Shown: positions 37,486 to 45,344 of the stretch, piece by piece
How positions within the stretch are numbered: position 1 is the first letter of the stretch
How the letters are laid out: each line of letters starts with the position of its first letter
Origin: Elusimicrobiota bacterium
Lineage (GTDB): Bacteria > Elusimicrobiota > Elusimicrobia > Elusimicrobiales > UBA9959
Reading direction: 5' to 3'
Assembly (NCBI GenBank): GCA_019135865.1
Contig: JAGVVD010000022.1
Coordinates: forward strand, 1 to 64,000
DNA: 64,000 nucleotides
The notes under the pieces: model-generated
What the model saw: only the letters and a program-made list of their open reading frames with translations
The model's database searches: none
What the model was told of the DNA's origin: nothing
Position numbers and translations under genes: made by a program

Positions 37486-37794
37486 TCCCCGGTAGCTCAA
37501 TGGTGGAGCATTCGGCTGTAACTATGTTGCAGCTTCCGCCGGAAACGGCGGTTGAAAAATCAGGTGAATTCAGGGAAATCCGCGATAAGCGGGCTATCCT
37601 GAGCCAAGCCCGGGACATCGGTCCCGGGAAGGTGCAGAGACTATCCCGTGAGGGAGTACCTTCCGCGCGAGCGGTCGGGAAGCGCCTGAGTCCGTAATCC
37701 GAAAGGATCGGACATGATATAGTCCAAGCCTCGAAGCAATTCGAGGGCCCTTGTAACCGAAGGGTTGTTGGTTCGAGTCCAACCCGGGGAGCCA
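37486..37794 (+). tRNA. tRNA-Asn(GUU), interrupted by a group I intron
   Basis: Exon 1 (37486-37519) holds acceptor TCCCCGG, D-arm GCTC...GAGC and the anticodon stem TTCGG with loop bases CTGT. Exon 2 (37754-37794) continues TAA-CCGAA, variable loop GGGTT, T-arm GTTGG-TTCGAGT-CCAAC, acceptor CCGGGGA, discriminator G and encoded CCA. Joined, the loop is CTGTTAA with anticodon GTT. The intron sits after U35, inside the anticodon. Reading the loop without the intron boundary rule would give a false tRNA-Tyr. All stems pair perfectly in the spliced form. Confidence 0.93.
37520..37753 (+). ncRNA. Group I intron (IC3-like) in tRNA-Asn
   Basis: A 234-nt intron that begins after U and ends with G (37753), the group I rule. 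P1: exon GCTGT (37515-37519) pairs with guide GCAGC (37529-37533), with the conserved U-G at the splice site and a 9-nt loop. P2 is CCGCCG-GAAA-CGGCGG (37536-37551). The core matches the cyanobacterial tRNA-Leu intron: TTCAGGGAAAT (37569-37579), ATCCTGAGCCAAGCC (37596-37610), GGTGCAGAGACTA (37631-37643) and ATATAGTCC (37717-37725). A GCAA-capped stem (37729-37746) ends it. No homing endonuclease is encoded. Confidence 0.93.
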
Positions 37795-39663: not shown

Positions 39664-40548
39664 TCAGTAGGAGGCCAGCACCTGCGCGCCTATGCGGTCG
39701 GCCAGGGAAGGATCGTCGATATAGGGATTGCGGTTGCCCTGGAAGGCCGCGATGAGGTCGTTGCGGCGGCGTTCGGCGGCGTCGGGCGGGTCCTGCCGGT
39801 TCCACTCCAGGAACATCGGAACGCGGCTGGTCCAGAAATTATCGTAATTCATGCCCTGCCGGATGTTCTTGTCATGATACATCGTGACGAAGTAGAGCAT
39901 GGCGCGGGCGACATTGCCTTTGACGGCGTCGGCCGGCTCGAAGCCCTCCCGGCCCAGGAGGGAGCCGGCGGAGGTGCCGTAGGAGGGGTTGGAGACTTCG
40001 GCGAACGGCAGGTTGCTCCGGCGGGAGTTGGGGGTCATGAAAGTGGGGGAAAGGTGATGCAGGTCCGACTTCATCGGGTAGGCTTCCTTGAAATAGCCCT
40101 GCGGCCAGATATGCTCGGCGTTTATAAAACTGTCCACCACGCCGTCGCCGTTCAGGTCGCCGCGCTCGGGATAGGAATTGCCGTTGCCGCTGCTGCCGCT
40201 GACGCAGACCTGGGAGTAGAAGGTGACTATGCCGGGCCCGCCGCCGCAGCCGACATTGTCCGCGGTCGAGTACATGTAGGATTTGGCTTCGGTGTAGCCG
40301 ATCACCGTTTTCTGCCACTGGGAGGGCCTGGCGGCCTGGTGGAGGTGATTGAAAAGGGCCTCGCCGCGCAGAGCCAGGGGTACGCCCGCCGCGCCGGGTT
40401 CGCCGGCCGCGGGGATCTCGATATCGGAGATGGAAAGCGAAGCCGCGCCCTGCAGGGAGTCGAGGGCGGGGGAGAGTTGGGCCTTGAGCGGCGAAACGAG
40501 GAGGGCGGCGGCAAGCGCCGGGTTTAAGAGCCTGATGACGATGTTCAA
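39664..40548 (-). CDS. Secreted endonuclease I-family nuclease (copy 1, TTG start)
   Basis: A 294-aa exported nuclease of the EndA/NucM (endonuclease I) family: the active-site motif NAEHIWPQGYF with His as base, then DLHHLSPTFMTPNSRRSNLPF, and the C-terminal EWNRQDPPDAAERRRNDLIAAFQGNRNPYIDDP, which is highly typical. Just before the catalytic motif is DLNGDGVVD, a Ca-binding DxNxDGxxD loop. The start is TTG at 40548, with GGAGG and a 4-nt spacer; the signal peptide then begins. Cys residues suggest disulfides. FNR-type boxes lie just upstream. It would degrade extracellular DNA or RNA. Confidence 0.88.
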   Translation of the reverse strand: MNIVIRLLNPALAAALLVSPLKAQLSPALDSLQGAASLSISDIEIPAAGEPGAAGVPLALRGEALFNHLHQAARPSQWQKTVIGYTEAKSYMYSTADNVGCGGGPGIVTFYSQVCVSGSSGNGNSYPERGDLNGDGVVDSFINAEHIWPQGYFKEAYPMKSDLHHLSPTFMTPNSRRSNLPFAEVSNPSYGTSAGSLLGREGFEPADAVKGNVARAMLYFVTMYHDKNIRQGMNYDNFWTSRVPMFLEWNRQDPPDAAERRRNDLIAAFQGNRNPYIDDPSLADRIGAQVLASY

Positions 40549-40566
40549 ACTGCCTCCGTTGACTTG

Positions 40567-40595
40567 TTGACTGATATCAATTTGACTGCCGTCAA
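40567..40595. promoter_or_regulatory. Tandem FNR-type boxes upstream of endonuclease copy 1
   Basis: TTGAC-TGAT-ATCAA (40567-40580) and TTGAC-TGCC-GTCAA (40582-40595), centres 15 bp apart; a further TTGAC half-site is at 40559-40563. They end about 11 nt from the start-codon Shine-Dalgarno region. Confidence 0.6.
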
Positions 40596-40693
40596 CTAAA
40601 GTTTATGCCATCGTACCCATTTCGCAAGGGCCAAAGGGCCTACGCTAAAAATAGGCCTTTCGGGTAAATTTCAGTAAAAACAGCGGGATTTGA

Positions 40694-40719
40694 CGAAAAA
40701 AAACCCGCCGAAGCGGGTT
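40694..40719 (-). terminator. Terminator of endonuclease copy 2
   Basis: Minus strand: AACCCGC-TTCG-GCGGGTT followed by T's (UUCG tetraloop). Confidence 0.9.
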
Positions 40720-40741
40720 GCGGGAGCGGAAGGCCCCGGGT

Positions 40742-41599
40742 CTAGTGGCGGGAGAAGACGGCCTCGCCTACGCGCTCCGCCAGCGAAGGGTCGTCGATAT
40801 AGGGATTGCGGTTGCCCTGGAAGGTCTCTATCAGGTCGTTGCGGCGGCGCTCGGCTGCGTCCGGCGGATCCTGCCGGTTCCAGTCCAGGAACATCGCTAT
40901 GCGGTCGGTCCAGAATTCCCGGTAGTCCATTCCGTCGTCTATGTTCCGGTCATGGTAGCGGGTGACGAAGTAGAGCATGGCGCGGGCGACATTGCCTTTG
41001 ACGGCGTCGGCCGGCTCGAACTCGCCGGTGCTGGAGAGAATGGAGCCCGCGGAGGTGGAATATACGGCATCGCCGGCCAGGCCGAAAGGATAACTGCCGC
41101 GCATGCCGTTGGGCGTCAGGAAAGTCGGAGCGAGATGATGCAGGTCGGCCTTCATCGGGTAGGCCGAGTTGAAATAGCCCTGGGGCCAGATATGCTCGGC
41201 GTTCATGCTGTTGTCGGAATAACCGTCGCCGTTGACGTCGCCGGTCTCGCCGTAGTCGCCGCCGTACTCGCTCTCGCCCCGCACGCAGACCTGCGAATAG
41301 AAGGCGGTCACGCCCGGGCGGCCGCCGCAGCCGGTATTGTCGGCCCGGGAGAACATGAACTTCTTGGCCTTGAGATAATCGTGGCCGCCCATGTTCTTGG
41401 GTATCTCCGTGGCGTCGTGAAGAGCGTCGAACAGGCGGGCGCCGGAAAGTCCGGAATAAGAAGGATAGTAGCGGGCCTCGGGGAGGCCGATCTCCGCGGA
41501 CCCGGAGAAAAGCTGTTCGGAAGGGGAGGGGGACGCGGCCCCGGCCGGTAAAGCCGGTATCAGGAGGAGTATCGTGGCGACCGCGGAAAACCTAGTCAG
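40742..41599 (-). CDS. Secreted endonuclease I-family nuclease (copy 2, probable CTG start)
   Basis: A paralog of the gene at 39664 (about 285 aa) with the same motifs: NAEHIWPQGYF, DLHHLAPTFLTPN, FEPADAVKGNVARAMLYF and EWNRQDPPDAAERRRNDLI-like ending, and the Ca-loop DVNGDGYSD. No ATG or GTG lies near the signal peptide (TRFSAVATILLLIPALPAGAA); the codon placed as in copy 1 (GGAGG, 4 nt, then start) is CTG at 41599. The in-frame TTG at 41647 overlaps the promoter TATAAT (41641-41636). So a CTG start is favoured. Confidence 0.8.
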   Translation of the reverse strand: MTRFSAVATILLLIPALPAGAASPSPSEQLFSGSAEIGLPEARYYPSYSGLSGARLFDALHDATEIPKNMGGHDYLKAKKFMFSRADNTGCGGRPGVTAFYSQVCVRGESEYGGDYGETGDVNGDGYSDNSMNAEHIWPQGYFNSAYPMKADLHHLAPTFLTPNGMRGSYPFGLAGDAVYSTSAGSILSSTGEFEPADAVKGNVARAMLYFVTRYHDRNIDDGMDYREFWTDRIAMFLDWNRQDPPDAAERRRNDLIETFQGNRNPYIDDPSLAERVGEAVFSRH

Positions 41600-41635
41600 G
41601 CTGCCTCCACCGCTGTGTCTTTCTACGCCGCTGTT

Positions 41636-41641
41636 ATTATA
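41636..41641 (-). promoter_or_regulatory. -10 box of endonuclease copy 2
   Basis: Minus-strand TATAAT; predicted start near 41629. A degenerate FNR-like site TTGAC-CGGC-GACAA (41660-41673) lies upstream and is one base off in one half. Confidence 0.5.
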
Positions 41642-41656
41642 CAACAATCGAGCCGG

Positions 41657-42377: not shown

Positions 42378-42383
42378 GATAAT
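42378..42383 (+). promoter_or_regulatory. Predicted leaderless -10 box for DEAD-box helicase 1
   Basis: GATAAT ends 5 nt before the ATG at 42389; no Shine-Dalgarno. Confidence 0.45.
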
Positions 42384-42388
42384 TGAGT

Positions 42389-43987
42389 ATGACAGAAACG
42401 AAACCTCTTCCCGCTTCGGGCTTCTACGGCCTCAATATCGCCCCCGGTCTCCTGGCCGAGCTCGACCGCCTCAAGTTCACCGTCCCCACCCCTATACAGC
42501 AGAAGGCCATACCCCCGGCCTGCGAGGGGAAGGACCTGGTCGGCATAGCCCAGACCGGCACCGGCAAGACCATCGCCTTCGCCATCCCCATGCTCCAGCG
42601 CCTGGCGGCCCTCCCCGGCCGCGGCCTCATCCTGCTGCCCACGCGCGAGCTGGCGCTGCAGGTCAACGAGGTCTTCAAGAAGTTCGCCCGCGCCGCCGGC
42701 ATACAGACCTCGGTGCTCATCGGCGGCGAGTCCATAGGCAGGCAGCAGCAGGACCTGCGCAAGCAACCGCGCGTCCTGATAGCCACGCCGGGGCGCCTCA
42801 TCGACCACATGGGCCAGCGCACCGTGAAGCTTTCCGATATAAGCGTGCTCGTCCTGGACGAGGCCGACCGGATGTTCGACATGGGCTTCGCCCCGCAGAT
42901 AGAGAAGATCCTGGCCGGGGTGCCCAAGGACAGGCAGACCATGCTTTTCTCCGCCACCATGCCCGACGACATAATGGCGCTGGCCTCGCGCCACATGAAA
43001 CTGCCGCTGCGCCTGGAGGTCGCCCGCTCCGGGACCACCGCCGAAGGCGTGGACCAGGAACTCTACGTCGTCGCCAGCCGCACGGAGAAGAACGCGCTGC
43101 TGGGCAAGCTGCTGGACAAGTACTGGGGCCCGGTGCTGCTCTTCATGCGCACCAAGCATCACGCCAAGCGGGTGGCCCGCGACCTGCGCGACATGGGGCA
43201 CAGCGCCGCGGAGATACATTCCAACCGCTCGCTCAACCAGCGCAAGGAGGCCCTGGAAGGCTTCAAGAGCGGCAAGTACCGCGTCCTGGTGGCCACCGAC
43301 ATAGCCGCCCGCGGCATCGACGTCACGGGGATAGAGCTGGTCATCAATTACGACCTGCCCGACGAGGACGAAAATTACGTGCACCGCATCGGCCGCACAG
43401 GCCGGGCGGGCAAGACGGGGCACGCGATAAGCTTCGCGACGCCGGACCAGGCGCAGATGGTGCGCTCCATAGAGAAGCTCATACGCAAGCCGCTCAAGCT
43501 TTCGGCGCATCCGGACATCAAGCCTTCCGCCCTGCACGGCTCGGCCGCGCCGGCGCAGCGGCGGCCAGCCGCCGGGGGCCAGCGGCAGCAGTCGCCGCGG
43601 CCGAACCGGCAGGACCAGAGACCGCAGCGGCGGCCCGGACCCGGGGCCGCCGGGAACGGCGGACAGTCCCGGCAGCAGCAGCCCCGCCCGGCGCGGGGAG
43701 GGAACCGCGACGAGCGCACTCCCGGCCGGCGCGAAGACCGCCGGGATTTCCGCCGCCAGGGCGGCGACCGCGACAGGAACGCGGGACGGCCGCGCTCCGG
43801 CGGCAGGGTCGAGGACTCGCCTTATTTCCCGGAGGACGGGCGGGGGATGTGGCGCGGCCAGGGCGGACGGGACCGCAACAGGGGCCGCGACGAGAGGCCC
43901 CAGCGCCCCGCGCCCGGACCCGCGCGCCAGGACGAGTCCCGCCGCAAGCCCCGCTGGTTCGATTTTTTCCGGAAGGAAAAGCGCTGA
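42389..43987 (+). CDS. DEAD-box RNA helicase with RG-rich tail (copy 1)
   Basis: A 532-aa ATP-dependent RNA helicase of the RhlE type. Helicase motifs in order: Q motif region TPIQQKAIP, I AQTGTGKT (near residue 53), Ia PTRELALQ, II DEAD, III SAT, IV FMRTKHHAKRV, V TDIAARGID, VI HRIGRTGRAGK. After residue about 385 comes a roughly 145-residue tail rich in Arg, Gly, Gln and Pro (NRQDQRPQRRPG-like), which should be disordered and bind RNA. The next gene is a close paralog lacking the long tail. Confidence 0.93.
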   Translation: MTETKPLPASGFYGLNIAPGLLAELDRLKFTVPTPIQQKAIPPACEGKDLVGIAQTGTGKTIAFAIPMLQRLAALPGRGLILLPTRELALQVNEVFKKFARAAGIQTSVLIGGESIGRQQQDLRKQPRVLIATPGRLIDHMGQRTVKLSDISVLVLDEADRMFDMGFAPQIEKILAGVPKDRQTMLFSATMPDDIMALASRHMKLPLRLEVARSGTTAEGVDQELYVVASRTEKNALLGKLLDKYWGPVLLFMRTKHHAKRVARDLRDMGHSAAEIHSNRSLNQRKEALEGFKSGKYRVLVATDIAARGIDVTGIELVINYDLPDEDENYVHRIGRTGRAGKTGHAISFATPDQAQMVRSIEKLIRKPLKLSAHPDIKPSALHGSAAPAQRRPAAGGQRQQSPRPNRQDQRPQRRPGPGAAGNGGQSRQQQPRPARGGNRDERTPGRREDRRDFRRQGGDRDRNAGRPRSGGRVEDSPYFPEDGRGMWRGQGGRDRNRGRDERPQRPAPGPARQDESRRKPRWFDFFRKEKR

Positions 43988-44069
43988 CCGGGCGCCGCGG
44001 CTTTAAAAAGGCCGGCGGAATTTGATATTTTTATAGCAGTCCAATACACAACGGAGACTTCCGCTAACG

Positions 44070-45344
44070 ATGAAATCACTGATAAAGAAAATAGGGCTCA
44101 AGACCCTCAAAAAACTGGGGTTCGCCCGCAAAAAAACTTCCGGCTTCTACGGCCTCGGCATAGCCCCCGGCCTGCTGGAGGAGCTGGACAAGAAGAAATT
44201 CGTGACGCCCACCCCCATACAGCAGCAGTCCATCCCGGTGGCTTCCGAGGGCAAGGACATGGTGGGAGTGGCGCAGACCGGCACAGGCAAGACCATCGCC
44301 TTCGCCATACCGATGATACAGCGGCTCGCCGCCACCAAGGGTAAGAAGGGCCTGGTGCTGCTGCCGACGCGCGAGCTGGCCATGCAGGTCAGCGAAGTGA
44401 TGAAGCAGTTCGCGCCGGTCATGGGCATGGGCGCCGTATGCCTGATAGGCGGCGAGGAGATGAACAAGCAGATGCGCGAACTTAAAAAGCGCCCGCGCAT
44501 ATTTATAGCCACGCCGGGGCGGCTGCTCGACCACATGGAGCGCCGCACGGTCCACGTCGACGACGTGGAAGTCCTCGTCCTCGACGAGGCCGACCGCATG
44601 TTCGACATGGGTTTCGCCCCGCAGATCAACCGCATCATGCGGGCGCTGCCGCGCGCCAGGCAGACCATGCTTTTCTCGGCCACCATGCCCGACGAGGTGA
44701 TGAAGCTTGCGTCCGACCACATGCACCTGCCGGTGCGCATAGAAGTCGCCCGCTCCGGCACGGCGGCCGAACTGGTGCGCCAGGAGCTCTACATCGTGGG
44801 GCACGGGGCCAAGTACGCGCTGTTGGGGAAAGTACTCCAGAAATATACCGGCAGCGTCCTGGTCTTCGTCCGCACCCGCGAGGACGCCATGAAGGTCACG
44901 CAGGTCATCGCCCACATGAAGCACCGGGTCTCGGAACTTCATTCCGACCGTTCCATGGGCCAGCGCAAGGAGGCCCTGGAGGGCTTCAAGAGCGGCAAGT
45001 ACCGCATACTGGTGGCCACCGATATAGCCGCCCGCGGCATCGACGTGACGGGCATCGAGGTCGTCATCAATTACACGCTTCCCGACGAGGACGACGCCTA
45101 CGTGCATCGCATCGGCCGCACCGGCCGCGCCGGGCAGCCGGGCCTGGCCATAACTTTCGCCACCCCCGACCAGGGGCCGGACGTGCGCAGTATAGAGGCC
45201 CTCATCAAGTCCAAGCTCAACGTGGTGACGCATCCCGAGATACAGCCGGCGGAATTCTGGGACGTGCGCAACACCGTGGCCACGGGCCGCGGCTGGAACC
45301 AGGGAGCGGGCCGCCGCCGCACCTTCGGCGGCCGGCGGAGATAG
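44070..45344 (+). CDS. DEAD-box RNA helicase (copy 2)
   Basis: A 424-aa RhlE-type helicase, highly similar to the preceding one (shared FYGL.IAPGLL.ELD.......TPTPIQQ, FSATMPD.., HRIGRTGRAG). It adds a basic N-terminal helix (KSLIKKIGLKTLKKLGFARKK) and has only a short Arg/Gly tail (GAGRRRTFGGRRR). No intrinsic terminator separates the two genes, but the 82-nt gap contains AT-rich -10-like sequence. Its stop lies 3 nt before the next start, so it probably leads a six-gene run up to 52886. Confidence 0.92.
   Translation: MKSLIKKIGLKTLKKLGFARKKTSGFYGLGIAPGLLEELDKKKFVTPTPIQQQSIPVASEGKDMVGVAQTGTGKTIAFAIPMIQRLAATKGKKGLVLLPTRELAMQVSEVMKQFAPVMGMGAVCLIGGEEMNKQMRELKKRPRIFIATPGRLLDHMERRTVHVDDVEVLVLDEADRMFDMGFAPQINRIMRALPRARQTMLFSATMPDEVMKLASDHMHLPVRIEVARSGTAAELVRQELYIVGHGAKYALLGKVLQKYTGSVLVFVRTREDAMKVTQVIAHMKHRVSELHSDRSMGQRKEALEGFKSGKYRILVATDIAARGIDVTGIEVVINYTLPDEDDAYVHRIGRTGRAGQPGLAITFATPDQGPDVRSIEALIKSKLNVVTHPEIQPAEFWDVRNTVATGRGWNQGAGRRRTFGGRRR

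Follow-up and report, generated by a model that had tools for sequence, protein, structure and literature searches.

A subgroup IA2 group I intron within the anticodon of a tRNA-Asn(GUU) gene in an Elusimicrobiota bacterium

Group I introns are known from several bacterial tRNA genes. The hosts in the literature are tRNA-Leu, tRNA-fMet, tRNA-Ile2, and tRNA-Arg, with tRNA-Gly and tRNA-Lys in one study. A literature search spanning few subscription journals found no published group I intron in a bacterial tRNA-Asn, including for Nitrospira, Elusimicrobia, and subgroup IA2. The IC3 introns of cyanobacterial tRNA-Leu(UAA) and Azoarcus tRNA-Ile(CAU) are like the tRNA-Asn intron described here in their small size, insertion in the anticodon loop, GNRA-capped P2, and restoration of the tRNA by splicing, whereas they interrupt another tRNA at another anticodon position and lack the hairpins P7.1 and P7.2. 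To our knowledge, the known IC3 tRNA introns are mostly without an endonuclease frame. The tRNA-fMet intron of Synechocystis is also a bacterial tRNA intron, and its endonuclease, I-Ssp6803I, targets the anticodon region (cited in PMC3984707). However, I-Ssp6803I is a PD-(D/E)XK enzyme with a tRNA-fMet host, whereas HNH frames and a tRNA-Asn host are found here. The tmRNA T-loop introns are group I introns of a tRNA-like RNA in many phyla, but they occupy another gene and site, and their endonucleases are rare (4.1%) and of the LAGLIDADG type (PMC11915505).

IA2 is a subgroup common in phages. It has been assigned by the presence of P7.1 and P7.2 joined through a G-U-A sequence (PMC3428280). 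What sets the td ribozyme (IA2) apart from the otherwise similar IC3 ribozymes is a P7.1/7.2 extension that lies between P7 and P3 (PMC4498298), and the same trait was used for the subgroup in another study (PMC4227781). The phage IA2 introns, i.e., those of T4 td, the Pf-WMP3 DNA polymerase gene, and the thymidylate synthase gene of Vibrio phage pVa5, share with the tRNA-Asn family the P7.1/P7.2 hairpins between P7 and P3, the GUA linker, GNRA loops, the U.G pair at the splice site, the terminal G, and HNH endonucleases in several members. The phage introns lie in protein genes, whereas the tRNA-Asn family lies in a cellular tRNA gene. The HNH gene of the Pf-WMP3 intron is placed in P6a, whereas the frame of the tRNA-Asn family is placed in the P1 loop.

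In the window, i.e., the whole stretch of 64,000 nucleotides that was analysed, a tRNA-Asn(GUU) gene was located at 37486-37794 (+). A group I intron of 234 nt (37520-37753) splits it between U35 and U36. The features are as follows.

37486-37519 (+), 5' exon: acceptor, D arm, 5' side of the anticodon stem, C32 U33 G34 U35; 100% match to the spliced tRNA, ARAGORN fold of the joined exons
37520-37753 (+), group I intron, subgroup IA2: 234 nt, no ORF, terminal G; RF00028 match and covariation
37754-37794 (+), 3' exon: U36 A37 A38, 3' side of the anticodon stem, variable loop, T arm, acceptor, CCA; 100% match, ARAGORN
37514-37534 (+), P1: exon GGCUGU and intron AAC paired with GUU and GCAGCU, 9 bp, U.G at the 5' splice site; fold of -11.0 kcal/mol
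37529-37533 (+), internal guide sequence GCAGC: invariant across all aligned cores
37536-37551 (+), P2: 6 bp, GAAA loop; double-sided changes in 6/6 pairs
37560-37566 with 37683-37689 (+), P3, 5' and 3' strands: double-sided changes in 4/7 pairs, 98.8% paired
37570-37633 (+), P4-P5-P6 domain: drawn on the window sequence, counted on 24 cores
37570-37574/37598-37602 (+), P4: pairing counted on 24 cores
37579-37583/37589-37593 (+), P5: compensatory changes present
37603-37605/37631-37633 (+), P6: pairing counted on 24 cores
37609-37615/37622-37628 (+), P6a: compensatory changes present
37639-37643 with 37720-37724 (+), P7, the guanosine-binding helix, 5' strand GACUA and 3' strand: invariant in all 24 sequences
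37644-37655 (+), P7.1 hairpin UCCC GUGA GGGA: double-sided changes in 4/4 pairs, 95.8% paired
37656-37658 (+), GUA linker between P7.1 and P7.2, the IA2 signature: sequence, defined in PMC3428280
37663-37674 (+), P7.2 hairpin CCGC GCGA GCGG: double-sided changes in 4/4 pairs, 91.1% paired
37690-37694/37709-37713 (+), P8, spanning 37690-37713: double-sided changes in 4/5 pairs
37729-37735/37740-37746 (+), P9: GCAA loop; double-sided changes in 6/7 pairs
37726-37727 with 37751-37752 (+), P9.0, AA with UU: invariant
37753 (+), terminal G of the intron: sequence

The intron was recognized by cmscan as a full-length match to the Rfam model RF00028 (Intron_gpI) at 37510-37746 (+), with 82.4 bits (E 2e-19) against a gathering score of 50 bits, and the host genome has no other RF00028 match. 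ARAGORN recognized a tRNA neither in the window nor in the unspliced tRNA-Asn gene alone, but the joined exons folded as a complete canonical 75-nt tRNA-Asn(GTT) with CCA. The sequence-only reading had proposed a group I intron after U35 of tRNA-Asn(GUU), with U.G at the splice site in P1, a GNRA-capped P2, and no homing endonuclease. The covariance model, the exon match with the fold of the spliced form, the 9-bp P1 fold, and the 6-bp P2 stem with its GAAA loop agree with it, and the window copy indeed contains no endonuclease frame. A sigma-70 scan gave no promoter.

Two gene pairs of the window were noted besides the intron. At 39664-41647, two adjoining similar genes resemble secreted nucleases of the endonuclease I family (NAEHIWPQGYF...DLHHLSPTF). 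At 42383-45344, two DEAD-box RNA helicase genes lie side by side at a distance of about 5 kb from the intron. DEAD-box helicases can serve as group I intron chaperones elsewhere; no link to the window genes is drawn here.

The secondary structure from P2 to P9.0 was drawn on the window sequence, and its 60 pairs were counted across 24 related cores. Over these pairs, 95.9% of cells were paired. Double-sided changes were found in 40 of the 60 pairs (shuffled mean 26.4) and in 238 cells (shuffled mean 68), and none of 500 shuffles reached either value, where the shuffle does not correct for relatedness and the sequence used to draw the structure was itself among the 24. When the partner was shifted by one column, pairing fell to 46-48%; these slid controls retain relatedness, yet they fall far short of the proposed pairing. 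Compensatory changes were seen in P2, P3, P5, P6a, P7.1, P7.2, P8, and P9. P4 and P7 are nearly invariant; thus, conservation is what supports them. All paired core regions and both exons are intact in the window copy.

By the P7.1/P7.2-GUA criterion, the window intron is IA2, not IC3, because P7.1 and P7.2 with the GUA linker lie between P7 and P3 and both hairpins covary. The sequence between the two hairpins is GUA-CCUU, and two mismatched positions lie beneath the four G-C pairs of P7.2. The P7.1 region of the Nitrospirota-type members of the family differs from that of the window. In blastn, the nearest phage matches were introns in protein genes, e.g., thymidylate synthase, and the pVa5 thymidylate synthase intron, which also holds an HNH gene, has the same layout (...GACTATCCCATAGGGGAGTACATCGC...) as the window intron.

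The intron had been read from the sequence as IC3-type, with core blocks like those of the cyanobacterial tRNA-Leu intron. This assignment, which would also make it kin of the Azoarcus tRNA-Ile intron, did not survive. The same kind of host (a tRNA anticodon loop), the similar size, the GNRA-capped P2, and core blocks in common with the Azoarcus intron (GAGCCAAGC, AAGGTG, and GAGACTA) speak for it. However, the covarying P7.1/P7.2 extension with its GUA linker is foreign to IC3 introns (PMC4498298) and is not known from the Azoarcus intron, whereas the TCCC-loop-GGGA-GTA-hairpin layout recurs in the Vibrio phage intron. An IC3 intron is therefore quite unlikely here.

In about a third of the distinct tRNA-Asn introns, the P1 loop contains an HNH endonuclease frame. 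These introns are 531-619 nt long, and the frame has a conserved C-x2-C ... HH ... C-x-NCH-x-E-x-H motif. One of them, a 531-nt intron, was found in a genome of the window's own genus (G001), with a ribozyme core 96.5% identical to that of the window. The Nitrospira protein passed the cut-off of Pfam PF01844 (HNH) with 22.0 bits against 21.4; the same-genus Elusimicrobiota protein had no Pfam match but has motifs in common with the Nitrospira copy. The HNH proteins gave no NCBIfam match, and a PDB sequence search with them gave only cytochrome CxxCH matches. The AlphaFold2 model of the same-genus protein (mean pLDDT 67.9, with most of residues 11-60 and 71-100 above 80) matched mainly HNH nucleases in the PDB, i.e., Cap5, Geobacter HNH nickase, ZRANB3, endonuclease VII, and Cas9, with probability up to 0.97 and E values from 0.017 upward, none below 0.001. 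The C-terminal tail (LQLPxETxVEKSGEFRE) is encoded by the ribozyme core and is modeled with pLDDT below 50. The tail is probably passive coding, and the trace of it in the window intron was therefore not counted as a remnant.

Copies of 313-319 nt (L042/L124 and L073) keep no more of the frame than its end, ..LCANCHREVHA. On a tree of 45 cores, at least 11 switches between HNH and no HNH are required. Such a distribution of the frame is as expected of a homing cycle of invasion, decay, and loss. In two copies (L045:1163-1672 and L069:1859-2476), the HNH frame continues without a stop across the tRNA 5' exon (PGSSMVEHSAV...). Annotation software may therefore place the start of the protein within the tRNA. 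Other group I introns were seen in relatives of the host. One (L046, G016:C154:4174-4478) lies apparently in the T-loop of a tmRNA gene (GGTTCGA ... GTCCCGGCGCCTCCA), a known kind (PMC11915505). Three others (L044, L049, and L050; G012:C317 and G007:C132) lie in 23S rRNA genes, with frames that look like the LAGLIDADG type near L049 and inside L050.

We consider the window element to be a self-splicing group I intron in tRNA-Asn(GUU) from a site-specific lineage, mobile through HNH proteins in some members and now probably inherited vertically in the window copy, with a probability of roughly 0.93. In the pre-tRNA, GCUGU at the end of the 5' exon would pair with the guide GCAGC. An external guanosine held in P7 would attack after U35, and the freed U35 would then attack after the terminal G of the intron, so that the exons join and form the anticodon GUU. 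Such splicing is predicted from the anatomy and the covariation. The HNH protein of some members most likely acts in homing: it would cut tRNA-Asn genes that have no intron, so that the intron can be copied into them. The window copy has no HNH frame; it is therefore probably inherited vertically now and would be kept by precise splicing.

The distribution of the family was searched with one exact-pattern scan of 84,980 species genomes followed by exon reconstruction. Because an exact pattern was used, the true range may be wider. Of 60 scan contigs, approximately 15-20 were chance matches without tRNA exons and were left out. Introns at the identical position of tRNA-Asn were found in at least four phyla, i.e., Elusimicrobiota (the phylum of the window), Nitrospirota, Omnitrophota, and Bipolaricaulota, and the same site was occupied in individual MAGs that bear the labels Clostridia, Actinobacteria, or unnamed bacteria. 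Asn had been called an unusual host from the sequence. No published bacterial case was found in the literature searched, and the window intron is not an isolated one. The tree splits the Elusimicrobiota copies between two clades, both strongly supported; one of them also holds Nitrospirota and Bipolaricaulota. This fits transfer of the intron between phyla as read from the core sequences, although misbinned MAGs could be behind single cross-phylum cases. A contig labelled Lokiarchaeota (L086, JAUWZR010000081.1) holds the end of a tRNA-Asn intron, and its core and 3' exon are nearly the same as those of a Clostridia-labelled copy (L076). A misbinned bacterial contig is more likely than an archaeal intron. 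Carriage of the tRNA-Asn intron by phages was also considered; the sole viral-contig match lacks exon 1 and looks like chance, and where phages and plasmids matched the tRNA part, the matches were to ordinary tRNA exons.

Both split and uninterrupted tRNA-Asn genes are present within three genera of the host family (g3, g4, and g9). In g4, the flanks of an interrupted copy (L036) and an uninterrupted copy (L177) align at approximately 75% on both sides, and the 5' exons are identical. Therefore, the intron was gained or lost at one and the same locus. Such variation inside genera agrees with a neutral element that is gained and lost, and it speaks against another explanation, in which the intron is not a tolerated selfish element but is kept for a regulatory role, with its splicing setting how much tRNA-Asn is available. 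Retention without an endonuclease frame in many lineages and the single-copy, essential host gene would suit such a role. However, closely related genomes live with an uninterrupted tRNA-Asn gene and the intron has no sign of a sensor domain, which leaves regulation improbable.

The sequence-only reading had made dependence on self-splicing conditional on a sole tRNA-Asn gene; in the assembly of the host, i.e., 2.95 Mb in 59 contigs, no other one was found. The RF00005 model search of this assembly listed 43 other tRNA genes, none for Asn, and a search of the host genome with the spliced tRNA gave only the two exons of the split gene. Separately, tRNA-Glu(UUC) and tRNA-Thr(GGU) are also absent from the tRNA list, with no extra RF00028 match; assembly gaps or other causes may account for it. 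Given the 59 contigs and these two absences, a second tRNA-Asn may lie in the unassembled part of this genome. In the window's genus, the intron was found in 4/4 genomes and a free tRNA-Asn in none; the introns of the three other genomes are identical to those in contigs of Elusimicrobiales bacterium Ess09-09, Elusimicrobia bacterium X2_MetaBAT.4, and UBA11179. Among 59 genomes of the host family, 30 have exactly one uninterrupted tRNA-Asn, 15 others have the split form, and none has both, whereas approximately 7.6 genomes with both would be expected if the states were independent (p about 2e-6 by our own arithmetic). Nitrospira moscoviensis NSP M-1 has, on its complete chromosome, the split form as its only tRNA-Asn, and the six next-best matches fall in Arg, Lys, Met, and Thr tRNAs.

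The remaining explanation is that the gene is a pseudogene or its intron has stopped splicing, and that the true tRNA-Asn falls in a gap of the assembly. This could draw on the 59 contigs and the two other missing tRNAs, but it is the least likely and highly improbable against the intact core and exons, the uniform genus, the exclusive states across 45 family genomes, and the same state in a complete chromosome. The AAU and AAC codons are read by tRNA-Asn(GUU) alone. Therefore, cells in which the split gene is the sole copy must splice it, and growth would depend on this splicing.

With these results, tRNA-Asn joins the tRNAs whose genes host introns in bacteria. They also show that phage-typical IA2 introns, besides IC3, reside in bacterial tRNA genes. 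Many stages of the homing cycle are found at one site, even inside one genus, i.e., the uninterrupted gene, an intron with its endonuclease, a decaying endonuclease, and the bare intron. Because annotation programs miss the split gene, such genomes appear to lack tRNA-Asn. N. moscoviensis is cultured and has a closed genome with the split gene as its only tRNA-Asn, so splicing is directly testable in it. The tRNA-Asn introns may have originated from phage-type introns. We give an even chance to a fuller history, in which a phage-type IA2 lineage entered tRNA-Asn, specialised on one site, and crossed phyla with an HNH protein reading the anticodon arm, leaving clades that include the nitrite-oxidising Nitrospira dependent on a ribozyme. 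If such a site-specialised lineage is real, the protein synthesis of whole clades would depend on a ribozyme.
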